The position numbers were made by a program, and so were the translations under genes. The notes under the pieces are model-generated. The model saw only the letters and a program-made list of their open reading frames with translations. It ran no database searches and was not told where the DNA came from. DNA of 39,025 bases from Frankiaceae bacterium (GTDB taxonomy: Bacteria; Actinomycetota; Actinomycetes; JADGOV01). Numbering within the stretch: the stretch's first letter is position 1; each line of letters starts with the position of its first letter. Location: positions 1 through 39,025 of the forward strand of contig JADGOV010000017.1 of the NCBI GenBank assembly GCA_017882785.1, in the 5' to 3' direction. Below, in pieces: positions 21,001-25,494 of this stretch.

Positions 21001-22269
21001 TCACGTCCCCTCCGGGAACAGGTCGAAGAGCGCGCGAAGGGCCTCGGCGTAGGCGTGACCGCCGGGTCGTCCGGCCAATTCCTTCACCCGGACAGTGGGC
21101 GCGTGCAGCAGCTTGTCCACGACCCGGTGGACGGCGTTGGCCACCTCCGCGCGTTCCCGGTCCCCCAGGTCGGGCAGCCGGTTGTTCAGCCGGGCCAGTT
21201 CCGCGGCCACTACCGCCGAGGCCTTGTCCCGAAGAGCCGCGACGGTCGGCCCGACCTGCACCGACCGCTGCCAGCCCAGGAACGCCGCCACCTCCTCGGC
21301 CACGATGTCCCGGGCGGCCGCGATGTCCCGGCCGGCAGAAGCATCGCGCAGCGCCTCGCCGAGGGTGGCGAGATCGACCAGCCTGACCCCCGGCACCCGC
21401 CGGACAGCCGGGTCGACATCGTGCGGCAGGGCCAGGTCCACGATCGCCAGCGGGCGTTGGGTCCGATGCGCCATCGCCGCCGCCACGGCCGGCGCGCGGA
21501 GCACGAGGCCGGTCGAGCCGGTGGAGGAGAGCACGAGGTCGGCGACGGCCACCTCGGCCGGGACGTCGGGCAGCCGCACAGCTCGCCCGTCGTAGGTGTC
21601 GGCCAGCCGCTCGGCCCGCGGCATCGTCCGGTTGGCGATCACCAGCTCAGCCACGCCACCACGGCGCAGCAGGGCCGACGCCAGCGCCCCCATCGACCCG
21701 GCGCCGATCACGACGGCCCGCAGGCCCACCAGCGAGCCGACAGTGAGCGTGGCTTCCTCGAGCGCGGCGGCGACGACGGAGGCTCCTGCCCTGTCGATGC
21801 CGGTTTCGGCGTGCACCCGTTTCCCCACGCGCAGCGCCTGCTGCACCAACTCCCCGATGCCGCGACCGACTGTCCCCTCGGCTCGGGCCAAGCGGTGCGC
21901 GGCTCGCAGTTGGCCCAGGATCTGACTCTCACCGACCACCATCGAATCCAGGCCGGCCGCGACGGCGAACAGGTGCGCGACCGCGCTGTCCTCGTAGTGC
22001 AGGTACAGGTGCGGTGACAACTCGTCGAGAGACAGCCCGCTGGCCCGGGACAGAAGCTCGGAAATCTCCTGCCCACCGGCGTGGAACTTCGACACCTCGG
22101 CATAGACCTCCACCCGGTTGCAGGTGGCAAGGACGACAGCCTCCTCGACGTGCAGGCAGCCGCCTAGGTCGGCAAGCAGCTTGGCGGCCTCGTCGCCGAC
22201 CAGGGCAGCCCGTTCCAGCAGATCCACAGGTGCGGACCGATGGGAGAGGCCGACGGCCACCATGTTCAT
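21001..22269 (-). CDS. hemA: Glutamyl-tRNA reductase HemA
   Basis: First enzyme of the C5 heme route: reduces glutamyl-tRNA(Glu) to glutamate-1-semialdehyde, which HemL uses. The 422-residue protein has VGLSHRSAPVDLLERA, the catalytic cysteine C50 in LATCNRVEVYAEV, VVGESQILGQLRAA, the NADPH-binding VIGAGSMGALASALL, and a C-terminal dimerisation helix region. The start ATG AAC ATG lies inside a series of 14-bp repeats and has no recognisable Shine-Dalgarno sequence; the second ATG, at 22263, is an alternative. It is first in the hemA-hemC-cobA/hemD-hemB unit. Confidence 0.96.
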   Translation of the reverse strand: MNMVAVGLSHRSAPVDLLERAALVGDEAAKLLADLGGCLHVEEAVVLATCNRVEVYAEVSKFHAGGQEISELLSRASGLSLDELSPHLYLHYEDSAVAHLFAVAAGLDSMVVGESQILGQLRAAHRLARAEGTVGRGIGELVQQALRVGKRVHAETGIDRAGASVVAAALEEATLTVGSLVGLRAVVIGAGSMGALASALLRRGGVAELVIANRTMPRAERLADTYDGRAVRLPDVPAEVAVADLVLSSTGSTGLVLRAPAVAAAMAHRTQRPLAIVDLALPHDVDPAVRRVPGVRLVDLATLGEALRDASAGRDIAAARDIVAEEVAAFLGWQRSVQVGPTVAALRDKASAVVAAELARLNNRLPDLGDRERAEVANAVHRVVDKLLHAPTVRVKELAGRPGGHAYAEALRALFDLFPEGT

Positions 22270-22315
22270 GCTGGAATGTTCATGCTGGATGGCTCATCGT
22301 TGAGGGTTCATGCTG
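22260..22315 (-). repeat. Four 14-bp tandem units running into the hemA start codon
   Basis: On the minus strand the units are CAGCATGAACCCTC, AACGATGAGCCATC, CAGCATGAACATTC and CAGCATGAACATGG. Units 1, 3 and 4 share CAGCATGAAC; unit 2 is degenerate but keeps GATGA in register. The hemA ATG is in the last unit, and every unit puts an ATG at the same place, so there are several false starts just upstream of the true one. Confidence 0.85.
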
Positions 22316-22342
22316 AAGAGCCCTGCTCCGGTACTCCCACCC

Positions 22343-22381
22343 GACGGAAGGTGCCGACAGGGTCACAAGCTCACTTCCGTC
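22343..22381 (-). promoter_or_regulatory. Hairpin-forming inverted repeat in the hemA upstream region
   Basis: The arms GACGGAAG (22343-22350) and CTTCCGTC (22374-22381) are perfectly complementary over 8 bp and enclose 23 bases. If transcription starts near the Rex-like site, this would form in the hemA 5' leader. No U-run follows, so it does not look like an intrinsic terminator. Confidence 0.4.
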
Positions 22382-22409
22382 CTCCGACGGCCGAGGGGGT
22401 TATGCGGTC

Positions 22410-22438
22410 AGGTTACGCGGTTGTGAACCGCCGCACAA
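22410..22438 (-). promoter_or_regulatory. Candidate hemA promoter overlapping a Rex-operator-like site
   Basis: On the plus strand 22421-22438 reads TTGTGAACCGCCGCACAA. The known Rex operator consensus is TTGTGAA, four bases, TTCACAA; here the left half is perfect and the right half has two mismatches. On the minus strand a weak -35 TTGTGC (22438-22433) and -10 TAACCT (22415-22410) are 17 bp apart, so the site would cover the -35 box and part of the spacer, a repressor-like position. It lies about 150 bp upstream of hemA, between hemA and the glutaredoxin-like gene. Confidence 0.5.
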
Positions 22439-22466
22439 AGTGAGCGATTGTGACCGGCGTGCCCGC

Positions 22467-22724
22467 TTAGCCCTCCAGCGCTCGACGCAGGCGTTCCTCG
22501 TCCACGGCGAACACCGCGTACTCCTCGCCGTCGAGGAGTGTGACGGGTATCCAGTCCGCCCAGCGACGGTAGTCCACCGGGTCGGCGGTGATGTCCCGTT
22601 CTTCCATCACGACGCCGAACTCGACAGCCAGCCCCCGCAGGGCCGTGCGCGCGTCGTCGCAGAGGTGGCATCCGGGCTTCGTGAGCAGCGTGAGGCGATG
22701 TGGGACATGTGCCACATGTCCCAC
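22467..22724 (-). CDS. Glutaredoxin-like (DUF836-type) small redox protein
   Basis: An 85-residue thioredoxin-fold protein. LTLLTKPGCHLCDDARTAL carries a CxxC redox pair (C19, C22 from the GTG at 22724). The rest, ERDITADPVDYRRWADWIPVTLLDGEEYAVFAVDEERLRRAL, matches the glutaredoxin-like family common beside hemA in actinobacteria. The upstream frame is open to 22880 but is only the overlap with the ligase gene. The only plausible start codons, GTG at 22724 and GTG at 22715, are both within the 25-bp palindrome, and no strong ribosome binding site precedes them. If the first is used, the protein begins MGHVAHVPH, a short His-rich lead. It probably shares a transcript with the ligase, whose stop is 20 bp upstream. 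Confidence 0.85.
   Translation of the reverse strand: MGHVAHVPHRLTLLTKPGCHLCDDARTALRGLAVEFGVVMEERDITADPVDYRRWADWIPVTLLDGEEYAVFAVDEERLRRALEG
22700..22724. promoter_or_regulatory. Perfect 25-bp palindrome at the start of the glutaredoxin-like gene
   Basis: The left arm GTGGGACATGTG (22700-22711) and right arm CACATGTCCCAC (22713-22724) are perfect reverse complements around a single central C. The palindrome starts exactly at the predicted GTG start codon on the minus strand. It could be an operator for a dimeric repressor or an RNA hairpin that hides the start codon. No T-run is adjacent, so a terminator is unlikely. Confidence 0.75.
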
Positions 22725-22744
22725 TTCGACCCCGTCACCGACGC

Positions 22745-24325
22745 TCAGAGGACCCCCGCACCGTCGTCGGCGGCAGCTACCCCCGCCCCGGCTGCCTCCG
22801 CCGCCCGCAACTGGCCCTTCGCCACCCGGCCGGTCGCGGTATGCGGGAACTCGGTGACGAACTGCACGGTCGTCGGGCACTTGAAGCGGGCCAGCGACAG
22901 GGCTCCGTACTCGATGACATCCTCGGCCGAGAGCCGGGCACCTTCCCGCAGCCGCACGAGCGCTTTGACCGACTCGCCGGTGTAGGGGTGCGCGATGCCG
23001 ATGACCGCCACCTCGGCGATGTCCGGATGTTGGCTCAGCGCGTTCTCAACCTCACGCGGGTAGACGTTGAACCCGCTGACCAGGATCAACTCCCGCATCC
23101 GGTCGACGAGGAACAGATCGCCGTCATCATCGGCGTACGCGACATCGCCGGTGCCCAGCCAACCCTCGCCGTCCGGGCCTTCCCGCCCGTCCGGCCAGTA
23201 GCCGGAGAACAGGTTCACCCCGCGCACGACGATCTCGCCGGGGTCGTCCTCCTCCACTTCGGATCGGTCGTCGTTGAGCAGCCGGAGCTCGACCCCGGGG
23301 ATGGGCCGACCGATCGAGCCCGACTTGGGTTCCTCGCTGGTCAACGTCGTTGTAAGCACCGGCGCGGTCTCGGTCAGGCCGTAACCCTCGAAGACGTGGT
23401 GCCCGGTCTGCTCGAGCATCGAGCGGTGCACCGCCGGCGGTAGCGGTGCGGCGCCCGAGACGGCCAGCCGGACGGTCTGGAACGCCTCCCCGACGCCGGG
23501 CAGCATCGACCAGGCGATGAACATCGGCGGCGCGCCCATGACGGTGCTCACGCTGTGTCGGCTGATGTCCGCGAGGGTCTCCACCGGGTCGAACCGCTCG
23601 ACCAGGACGCCGGTGGCACCGTGGAAGGCAACTTCGCCGAGGCCACCGTTGAGACCGTAAATGTGGAACAGCGGCAGCACGAGCAACACGATGTCGTCGG
23701 CGTCGATCGTCCGCGGCCGGATCCGGGCGGTCTGTTCGAGGTTCCCGATCAAGGCACGGTGGCTCAGCATGGCGCCCTTGGGTCGCCCGGAGGTTCCAGA
23801 CGTGTACATCAACACCGCCAGGTCCTCACCGCCCGTCACCGGCTCTACGGGACGGTCTGGCAGTAGCAACTCGTCGTAGGTCGCGGTGCCCGACACCGCG
23901 GCGGTGTCGGTGACCAGCACGGTCTCCAGGCTCGACAAGATCTCGCTCAAGGCGGTGACCACGGGAGCGGCGGCCCGCCCACACAGCGCCATTCGGGTGC
24001 CGGAGTCGCTGAGGAGGTAGGTCAACTCGTCAGCGGTGTAGGCGGTGTTGATCGGCACCGCGACCAGGCCAGCGCGCAGGATGCCGAAATAGGCCGCCAC
24101 GTAGTCGGGTGTGTTGCCCAGGAGCAGGGCGACACGGTCTCCCCGGTTGAGCGGGCGGGACTGCAAGCCGGCGGCTACCGCGTCCACGCGCCGATCCAGC
24201 TCAGCCCAACTCACGGCATCCTCACGGAAGAGCAGGGCCACCTTGTCCGGAAACACATGGGCGGCGCGCCGGACGAGATCAGAGAGGTTGCCGACTCCGC
24301 CCTCGCCCGTGCCGGGAAGACCCAT
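22745..24325 (-). CDS. Long-chain acyl-CoA synthetase / AMP-dependent ligase
   Basis: Activates a carboxylic acid, probably a fatty acid, as acyl-AMP and then acyl-CoA. All adenylation-family motifs are in order over 526 residues: YTSGTSGRPKGAMLSH, the core GYGLTETAP, GWLGTGDVAYADDDG, VDRMRELILVSGFNVYPREVE, and the C-terminal catalytic lysine in TGRVAKGQL. The ATG at 24325 has AGGAGG 10 bases upstream; the later GTG before GNLSDLVRRAA is an alternative. A short Ala/Gly tail ends the protein. It runs divergently from the BldN-like gene. Substrate chain length cannot be read from the sequence. Confidence 0.93.
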   Translation of the reverse strand: MGLPGTGEGGVGNLSDLVRRAAHVFPDKVALLFREDAVSWAELDRRVDAVAAGLQSRPLNRGDRVALLLGNTPDYVAAYFGILRAGLVAVPINTAYTADELTYLLSDSGTRMALCGRAAAPVVTALSEILSSLETVLVTDTAAVSGTATYDELLLPDRPVEPVTGGEDLAVLMYTSGTSGRPKGAMLSHRALIGNLEQTARIRPRTIDADDIVLLVLPLFHIYGLNGGLGEVAFHGATGVLVERFDPVETLADISRHSVSTVMGAPPMFIAWSMLPGVGEAFQTVRLAVSGAAPLPPAVHRSMLEQTGHHVFEGYGLTETAPVLTTTLTSEEPKSGSIGRPIPGVELRLLNDDRSEVEEDDPGEIVVRGVNLFSGYWPDGREGPDGEGWLGTGDVAYADDDGDLFLVDRMRELILVSGFNVYPREVENALSQHPDIAEVAVIGIAHPYTGESVKALVRLREGARLSAEDVIEYGALSLARFKCPTTVQFVTEFPHTATGRVAKGQLRAAEAAGAGVAAADDGAGVL

Positions 24326-24555
24326 ATCGTCCAGACCTCCTCAGGGCACGCTGACCGATCGGCGCCGCTGGCCCGTCGGGCTTTGTCCGTCTGCCGGTAG
24401 TGTTTCACAGTTGCAAGCAGCGGCCCCGCCGGCCCTGCGACCGGCCGCATCGAGCGTTCGGCGTTCCTGCAGGCACAATAGGCGGGTTCGACCTCATCCC
24501 CGGGCTCGATCGCGATCCTTTGACCCGGACCCTCAACCGGACTCCCGGAGACACG
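24326..24555. promoter_or_regulatory. Divergent promoter region between the acyl-CoA ligase and bldN-like genes
   Basis: A 230-bp non-coding interval. The frame of the sigma-factor gene is open back to an ATG at 24400, so the segment 24400-24555 could be translated if that start is used, but it has no ribosome binding site and reads as unstructured sequence. I see no strong -35/-10 pair and no clear long palindrome. Confidence 0.3.
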
Positions 24556-25494
24556 ATGTCGCCTCGGCCGGCCAGCCGCCTCACACGGGGGGCGGGACTC
24601 GGCCGACTTCGGCGTGCCCAGCGTGCACGTCGCGAGCTGTTGACGGCCCGGCTACTCGGTCTGTCGACGGCCCTCGCGCACTCCGCACTGGGCACGCGGG
24701 TCCCCGGCGTTCGGGGCCGGCGGCTGACACCGGCATGGGCCGGCGCCGGGGGCGTCAGCTGGCAGCGTCTCGTGTCGTCGGCGACGGAGACACCGGATCG
24801 ACGTCGTCGGCTTCCCTCGGTGGTCGAGGGGTCCCTGACGGTCAACGGCCGGGGCAACGTGGCTGACCTCGACCTCGACCTCGAGGAGGAGGAGGAGGAG
24901 GAGGAGGACACCGAGCTCGCCGCGGACAGGGACCAGGACAGGGAGACTGTCAGGACGCTCCTCGCCGAAGCCCAGCAGGGCCAGGCCGAGGCCTTCGGTC
25001 AGCTCTACGACCGGTACGTCACGCTCATCTATCGCTACACCTACTACCGGGTGGGGAGCGTCGCACTCGCCGAGGACCTCACGAGTGAGACGTTCCTGCG
25101 GGCGCTGCGGCGGATCTCATCCTTCACCTGGCAGGGGCGGGACTTCGGGGCCTGGCTGATCACGATCGCCCGCAATCTCGTGGCCGACCACTACAAGTCA
25201 GCGCGCTTCCGACTCGAACTGCCCACCGCCGACATGCTGCAGGCCGACGCCGAGGAGCTCGCGGCCGGACCGGAGGGACAGGTGATCGGGGGCCTGACGA
25301 ACGCCGCGCTCCTCGACGCTGTCCGCGAACTTGGGTCCGAGCAGCAGGAGTGCATCGTCCTGCGCTTCTTCGAGGGTCTCTCGTTGACCGAGACCGCGCT
25401 CGCCATGGACAAGAGCGCCGGCGCGGTGAAGGCCCTGCAGTACCGAGCCGTACGCTCCCTCGCACGGCTATTGCCAGCGGACTTCCACCGGTGA
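24556..25494 (+). CDS. BldN/AdsA-type ECF RNA polymerase sigma factor with long N-terminal extension
   Basis: Alternative sigma factor related to Streptomyces BldN, which directs aerial-mycelium genes. The start ATG has GGAG 5 bases upstream, giving 312 residues. Region 2 is at about 146-213 (AFGQLYDRYVTLIYRYTYYR, AEDLTSETFLRALRRISSF, then TWQGRDFGAWLITIARNLVA) and region 4 at about 250-305 (QQECIVLRFFEGLSLTETAL, then KALQYRAVRSLARLLP). These are close to BldN as I remember it. The first 125 residues are basic and then acidic, ending in LDLDLE and a run of eight Glu (110-117) encoded by consecutive GAG codons. Streptomyces BldN also has an N-terminal prosequence of about 86 residues that is removed by proteolysis, so this extension may be an equivalent. 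The anti-sigma factor gene follows. Confidence 0.92.
   Translation: MSPRPASRLTRGAGLGRLRRAQRARRELLTARLLGLSTALAHSALGTRVPGVRGRRLTPAWAGAGGVSWQRLVSSATETPDRRRRLPSVVEGSLTVNGRGNVADLDLDLEEEEEEEEDTELAADRDQDRETVRTLLAEAQQGQAEAFGQLYDRYVTLIYRYTYYRVGSVALAEDLTSETFLRALRRISSFTWQGRDFGAWLITIARNLVADHYKSARFRLELPTADMLQADAEELAAGPEGQVIGGLTNAALLDAVRELGSEQQECIVLRFFEGLSLTETALAMDKSAGAVKALQYRAVRSLARLLPADFHR

Follow-up and report, generated by a model that had tools for sequence, protein, structure and literature searches.

Mycobacterial interspersed repetitive units (MIRUs) occur as tandem copies in senX3-regX3, with unit lengths of 77 and 53 bp, both of the form 3k+2. As described in a review that draws on Supply et al. 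1997 (PMC12548453), the MIRU repeat lies at a start codon, where it provides a small ORF whose coupling to the gene runs through a -4 nt overlap, and gene expression is thought to be little changed by the insertion. Shell et al. 2015 (PMC4633059) described mycobacterial short ORFs that precede a gene and share RTGA with it, their position being kept and their peptide sequence changing; small ORFs coupled in this way are over-represented in these bacteria. Termination-reinitiation has been described at ATGA/TGATG gene pairs (Huber et al. 2019, PMC6728339), and AUGA coupling to a uORF without a Shine-Dalgarno (SD) sequence has been demonstrated experimentally for PPE2 of M. tuberculosis, which depends on that uORF (PMC11260477). 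In an E. coli study, the boost given by an upstream ORF required a strong RBS and a length of at least 8-10 codons (PMC13255528). Repeats of constant size, 20-21 and 52 nt, are reported from Bacillus, the available text of that source describing no role for ATGA (PMC8161180). No description of a tandem ATGA ladder was found in the available text of the open-access literature searched, MIRUs and the constant-size Bacillus repeats being the nearest.

The window analysed here is a stretch of 39,025 nucleotides from a Frankiaceae bacterium (contig JADGOV010000017.1), in which hemA is preceded by such a ladder. As in MIRUs, a small ORF is joined to the gene start through a -4 nt overlap. However, MIRUs form a mobile family of homologous repeats, tens of bp long and with a family consensus, whereas the hemA ladder unit is 14 bp; the 14- or 17-bp units of ladders are unrelated between loci, are sometimes like the first bases of the gene, and show no sign of mobility. 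A nucleotide search with 22180-22800 against its own genome found no dispersed homologous copies, only the region itself and a self-complementary palindrome. For these reasons (no dispersed copies, short units, unrelated sequences) the hemA ladder is not a MIRU, and it is best read as a very short cousin of the mycobacterial MIRUs. With the coupled small-protein ORFs it shares the RTGA stop-start arrangement, since stop and start lie in a shared RTGA at 22269-22266 and at every rung, but those are single ORFs, and the available text of Shell et al. describes no tandem repeat, multi-rung chain or period rule. The ribosome step that we propose for each overlap is the same as at ATGA/TGATG pairs and at uORF-PPE2, which, as far as those two sources describe them, have one overlap each and no ladder.

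A ladder of ATGA overlaps upstream of hemA

TRF reports two perfect 14-bp copies at 22262-22289 and 3.7 copies at 22264-22315. Four ATGA at an exact 14-bp period occur once in the window, never in 100 shuffles, and once in the whole 3.2-Mb genome, confirming the preliminary description of a 14-bp tandem array that ends at the hemA start. On the minus strand the units are, in order, TTCAGCATGAACCC / TCAACGATGAGCCA / TCCAGCATGAACAT / TCCAGCATGAACAT. As had been noted, three of the four share CAGCATGAAC, which has three matches in the window, a number reached in 0 of 100 shuffles; the account of the units needs correcting for the second, which is much diverged. Homology, with 127 other loci aligned, places the hemA start at 22269, so that the last ATG was rightly taken as the real start, and the reported lack of an SD sequence also holds, the anti-SD duplex at this start being +0.4 kcal/mol.

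Each of the three upstream ATGs, which had been described as lying in false frames or stopping soon, opens a frame of five codons whose TGA and the next start share ATGA (Table 1). Because 14 is 2 mod 3, these chained stop-start overlaps are automatic in any ATGA array with a period of 3k+2; the pattern of the array alone is therefore no proof, and function needs evidence from outside it. The automatic overlap, like the strong divergence of one unit, suits a neutral tandem duplication, by which slippage copied the ATG start, the arithmetic of 14 bp made the overlaps, and hemA initiates alone or leaderless. A hemA without an SD sequence speaks against this account, which we think rather unlikely in view also of the comparisons given below.

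Table 1. Features of the hemA locus in the window (all on the minus strand)
Feature	Coordinates	Strand	Remarks
hemA, glutamyl-tRNA reductase, 422 aa	21001..22269	-	Pfam GlutR_N, Shikimate_DH, GlutR_dimer; start ATGA at 22269
ATGA ladder	22266..22311	-	four ATGA (22311, 22297, 22283, 22269), 14-bp steps, 46 bases
Mini-ORF 3	22266..22283	-	MNIPA*, TGA overlaps hemA ATG
Mini-ORF 2	22280..22297	-	MSHPA*, TGA overlaps next ATG
Mini-ORF 1	22294..22311	-	ATG AAC CCT CAA CGA TGA (MNPQR*), TGA overlaps next ATG
28-codon uORF from GTG22366	22280..22366	-	TGA overlaps ATG22283 (mini-ORF 3)
10-codon uORF from GTG22340	22308..22340	-	TGA overlaps ATG22311
uORF GTG AGC TTG TGA	22363..22374	-	TGA overlaps GTG22366
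GGAGG, the leader's only strong Shine-Dalgarno	22381..22385	-	6 nt before GTG22374; duplex -9.5 kcal/mol
Putative promoter TTGTGC-17-TAACCT	22410..22438	-	read by eye; promoter tool found none; -35 under operator as in PMC5355995
Rex-operator-like site TTGTGCGGCGGTTCACAA	22421..22438	-	same motif and geometry as rex promoter in PMC5355995

The putative leader of hemA, read from 22403, is 134 nt long. All of its ATG/GTG codons (6/6) reach hemA via RTGA links, in two chains: GTG22374, GTG22366, ATG22283 and hemA (chain A), and GTG22340, ATG22311, ATG22297, ATG22283 and hemA (chain B). At ATG22311 the anti-SD duplex is -5.8 kcal/mol in a 20-nt window and -3.4 in a tighter one, while GTG22374 has the best value of the starts compared. 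In 2000 dinucleotide shuffles of the leader, six or more chained starts were seen in 0.2%, a chain of at least three links in 0.65%, and a chained start with an SD of -8 or lower in 4.5%, it being understood that shuffling destroys the 14-bp repeat, which alone supplies half of the starts. At least one chained start was present in 53% of the shuffles, a frequency that favours neutral duplication and is counted against a relay.

An 8-bp hairpin, GACGGAAG/CTTCCGTC, is predicted at 22343-22383, over GTG22374 and part of its SD sequence, and might act as a gate on entry to the ladder. Taken whole, the leader is not predicted to fold better than its shuffles (z 0.48), an Rfam scan of it gave no match, and a scan for consensus promoters and terminators found none.

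Probable loss of rex and a leftover Rex-operator-like site

In S. avermitilis the promoter of rex carries a Rex-protected site, TTGTGCACGCGTTCACAA, over the -35 region (PMC5355995). The corresponding site of the present locus matches at 11 of 14 scored positions; it is the top-scoring site of the window and the only one of its kind there. In relatives, a motif score of at least 10 was found close to the start of rex at 115 of 121 loci (duplicates kept), as against 0 of 121 shuffled regions. Of the features of a Rex-regulated rex-hemA operon, the operator at the promoter is thus present here, and rex upstream is not: the gap between the glutaredoxin-like gene and hemA is about 200 bp with no rex in between, a Pfam PF06971 search of the genome gave no match, and a search with Rex protein gave 0 matches in this genome, whereas 54 of 60 genomes match. 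The operator-like site is either a relic or is read by another regulator. The promoter with the Rex operator, itself putative, now faces hemA, and the ladder occupies the place of rex. The simplest history would be a deletion that removed rex from between its promoter and hemA, and hemA, formerly dependent on its coupling to rex, would have passed to coupling with mini-ORFs.

The preliminary description had also raised binding sites spaced 14 bp apart. That the ladder is a set of such protein binding sites, or else a regulatory RNA element, seems to us very improbable: the CAGCATGAAC common to three units would suit it, but the recognisable operator sits elsewhere (22421-22438), the Rfam and folding results above give no sign of an RNA element, and ladders in other genomes share ATGA and period only, their unit sequences being unrelated.

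Two further repeats were seen in the window. A perfect 25-bp palindrome, GTGGGACATGTGCCACATGTCCCAC, lies at 22700-22724 between the gene for an AMP-binding enzyme and the glutaredoxin-like gene, which may start there; the region has a 33-nt self-match, and the palindrome looks like an operator. At 24883-24908, within a 364-codon ORF (24400-25494), there is a perfect GAG trinucleotide repeat of 8.7 copies that encodes a run of glutamate.

The rex-hemA junction in the class

The collection contains no second genome of the source organism's genus, family or order, and the comparison was therefore made at the level of the class; it covers 127 other hemA loci, 124 of them unique. The aligned hemA start is RTGA in 127 of 127, perhaps in part because bacterial genes in general favour A as their fourth base (PMC5850271). 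The TGA of rex lies inside the hemA RTGA at 91 of the 124 unique loci, and at one more (L021) an open frame of 267 codons ends there. At 27 loci rex stops earlier, and at 25 of these gapped loci overlapping starts and stops still chain rex to hemA, nearly always through one mini-ORF of 10 to 46 codons, with a direct TGATG link at L100; no such chain was found at the other two (L046 and L064). At the remaining 5 of 124, rex was not found (L090, which has 49 nt to the contig end, L095, L121, L123 and L126). In total, rex and hemA are linked by a shared stop-start or a bridging mini-ORF at 117 of the 119 unique loci with rex. Since 25 of 27 gapped loci are still chained, the link is kept even where rex and hemA have moved apart, and its survival of such insertions argues against neutral duplication.

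In several Nocardia (L038, L045, L051-L061 and others), upstream of 2501, a rex-hemA mini-ORF of 23 to 46 codons starting ATGAGTGAGCG was observed, which is missing in sister species and resembles an inserted, MIRU-type coupling element.

ATGA ladders across the class

The class was searched for four ATGA at a fixed period, in 393 or 355 genomes, comparisons being made on the same first 355. Period 14 was found in 36 of 355 genomes (40/393), period 17 in 27, period 16 in 16 (three of them truly period 8), period 13 in 10 (11/393) and period 11 in 7. Reversed patterns were found in 4/355 genomes at period 11, 2/393 at period 13, 5/393 at period 14, 14/355 at period 16 and 5/355 at period 17. 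Period 14 exceeds period 13 (Fisher's test, p 9e-5), period 16 (p 0.006) and period 11 (p 5e-6). Period 17 exceeds period 13 (p 0.006), and its excess over period 16 is weak (p 0.11, or 0.03 without the three period-8 arrays). As genomes of one genus are not independent, the figures by genus are 26/137 for period 14, 20/127 for period 17, 10/137 for period 13, 12/127 for period 16 and 7/127 for period 11. The prediction made beforehand, that periods 11 and 17 would be above 13 and 16, held for 17 versus 13, was weak versus 16, and failed for 11; a mod-3 rule for all periods fails on the low count of period 11 (7/355), which is also counted against a relay. With that exception noted, the repeat lengths of ladders mostly look fixed by reading frame.

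The three period-8 arrays (L192, L203 and L205, found in the period-16 search) consist of repeated ATGACGGG, ATGACCGC and ATGAGGCC and would be ladders of 3-codon ORFs, 8 also being of the form 3k+2. Three congeneric genomes (L155, L156 and L157) share a conserved four-rung ATGA array whose last rung opens only 7 codons; the arrays of L155 and L157 gave no Rfam match.

Location of ladders at gene junctions

An array was scored as junctional when open frames of 100 or more codons lie on both sides, one ending at its first TGA and the other beginning at its last ATG. The samples were 46 arrays at period 14 (31 from 30 loci and 15 fetched later) and 36 at period 17 (31 and 5), arrays of identical sequence being counted once; for periods 13, 16 and 11 the loci from their searches gave 12, 17 and 7 arrays. 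Both flanks are present for 14 of 46 arrays at period 14 (downstream 25, upstream 22), 14 of 36 at period 17 (20 and 21), 1 of 12 at period 13 (2 and 3), 1 of 17 at period 16 (4 and 4) and 1 of 7 at period 11 (3 and 3). An exact junction position is thus seen in 28 of 82 arrays of periods 14 and 17, the 82 including the window's own, versus 2 of 29 of periods 13 and 16 (p 0.004). Random ATGA in the same loci (n=1097) have both flanks in 1.1%, the downstream one in 16% and the upstream one in 13%. This direct statistic replaced a forward one, whether a chain reaches a long ORF, which was discarded because random ATGA score 47% by it. Neutral duplication would make periods 13 and 16 as common and as junctional as 14 and 17, contrary to what is observed.

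Pfam matches above the family cut-off were obtained for 12 of 19 downstream frames at period 14 (hemA excluded), 10 of 10 at period 17, and 8 of 11 upstream frames, the scan having covered 29 of 44 downstream and 11 of 43 upstream frames; judged by these domains, the flanks of the ladders are real genes. Examples are response regulator and histidine kinase (L134), alaS and ruvX (L149 and L150), ABC permease and ATPase (L140), and PIG-L and WbqC (L151), and further flanking genes include pyrF, ksgA and recG. In viral contigs, the junction position was found, among the matches listed, in 2 of 81 arrays at period 14, and in 1 of 64 at period 13, the null being 2.2%. At least 119 viral ATGA stretches have period 14 and 109 have period 13, two counts that are not comparable. 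With no junction signal in viral contigs, the junction effect is no general property of such repeats; that viral arrays lie off junctions is at the same time counted against a relay.

Copy number in the class ranges from 4 to 11. In two species of one genus (L491 and L492), the ladder that joins the same gene pair differs by one rung, 4 against 5, the upstream sequences being 96% and the downstream ones 94% identical. The suggestion that the repeat is prone to slippage is thereby supported in part. Both the range and the one-unit difference would fit a copy-number rheostat, in which each rung passes on a share of ribosomes and slippage in 14-bp steps sets HemA output heritably. We regard this as improbable, the alaS-ruvX ladder having 4 rungs in both of two species, its ATGA unchanged while its units changed. 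Linkage is in this way conserved despite sequence change at alaS-ruvX as it is at rex-hemA. On average, units are no more than 55% identical to the bases with which the gene opens, and therefore a duplication of the start fits some ladders but not all.

A proposed ribosome relay at hemA and in the class

On balance, we think it probable that the array is a stop-start ladder, a relay that hands ribosomes down to hemA. The proposal in the preliminary description that the array could tune initiation thus points in the right direction, but the mechanism indicated is translational coupling rather than competition by false starts. In favour of a relay stand the chaining of all six leader starts, the stop-start link to rex in relatives, the absence of rex here with its operator at the hemA promoter, the excess of periods 14 and 17 in the class and their position at junctions of real genes, and the coupling demonstrated for PPE2. 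Ribosomes would enter upstream, GTG22374 with its GGAGG being the best entry and ATG22311 a weak one; at each rung a ribosome would terminate, step back one base and reinitiate, and so proceed to hemA. Lacking its own SD sequence, hemA would have kept a coupled start after the loss of rex, with the ladder in its stead. Against a relay, besides the points counted above, the automatic overlaps, the weak excess of period 17 over period 16 and a leader fold that does not beat its shuffles, 5-codon frames may be poor relays, by analogy with the codon requirement in E. coli, and the good SD sequence lies partly inside the predicted hairpin.

The array probably originated by tandem duplication around an RTGA start. 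Duplications of 3k+2 bp would keep the coupling and both proteins, those of 3k+1 bp would break the chain for a single copy, and those of 3k bp would lengthen the protein. Among non-triplet duplications, those of 3k+2 bp would survive purifying selection because both proteins and the coupling stay intact, and such survival would account for the period bias with no special function needed.

More tentatively, the ladders may form a class of actinobacterial repeats in which translation sets the length of the unit, an idea that is possible but that we would still bet against. Units of 3k+2 bp around RTGA would be minimal-ORF relays between genes; a change in the number of rungs would leave both proteins as they are and step the downstream output, acting as a heritable translational rheostat; and at hemA the relay would have replaced a lost upstream gene.

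These findings suggest that, in dense operons, what filters tandem repeats is the frame in which stop and start overlap, not their sequence, and 3k+2 provides a simple rule for finding such repeats. Natural ladders with 4 to 11 rungs offer material to measure the frequency of AUGA reinitiation in actinobacteria, and the hemA locus is an example of how an operon may survive the loss of its first gene, here the redox regulator rex.
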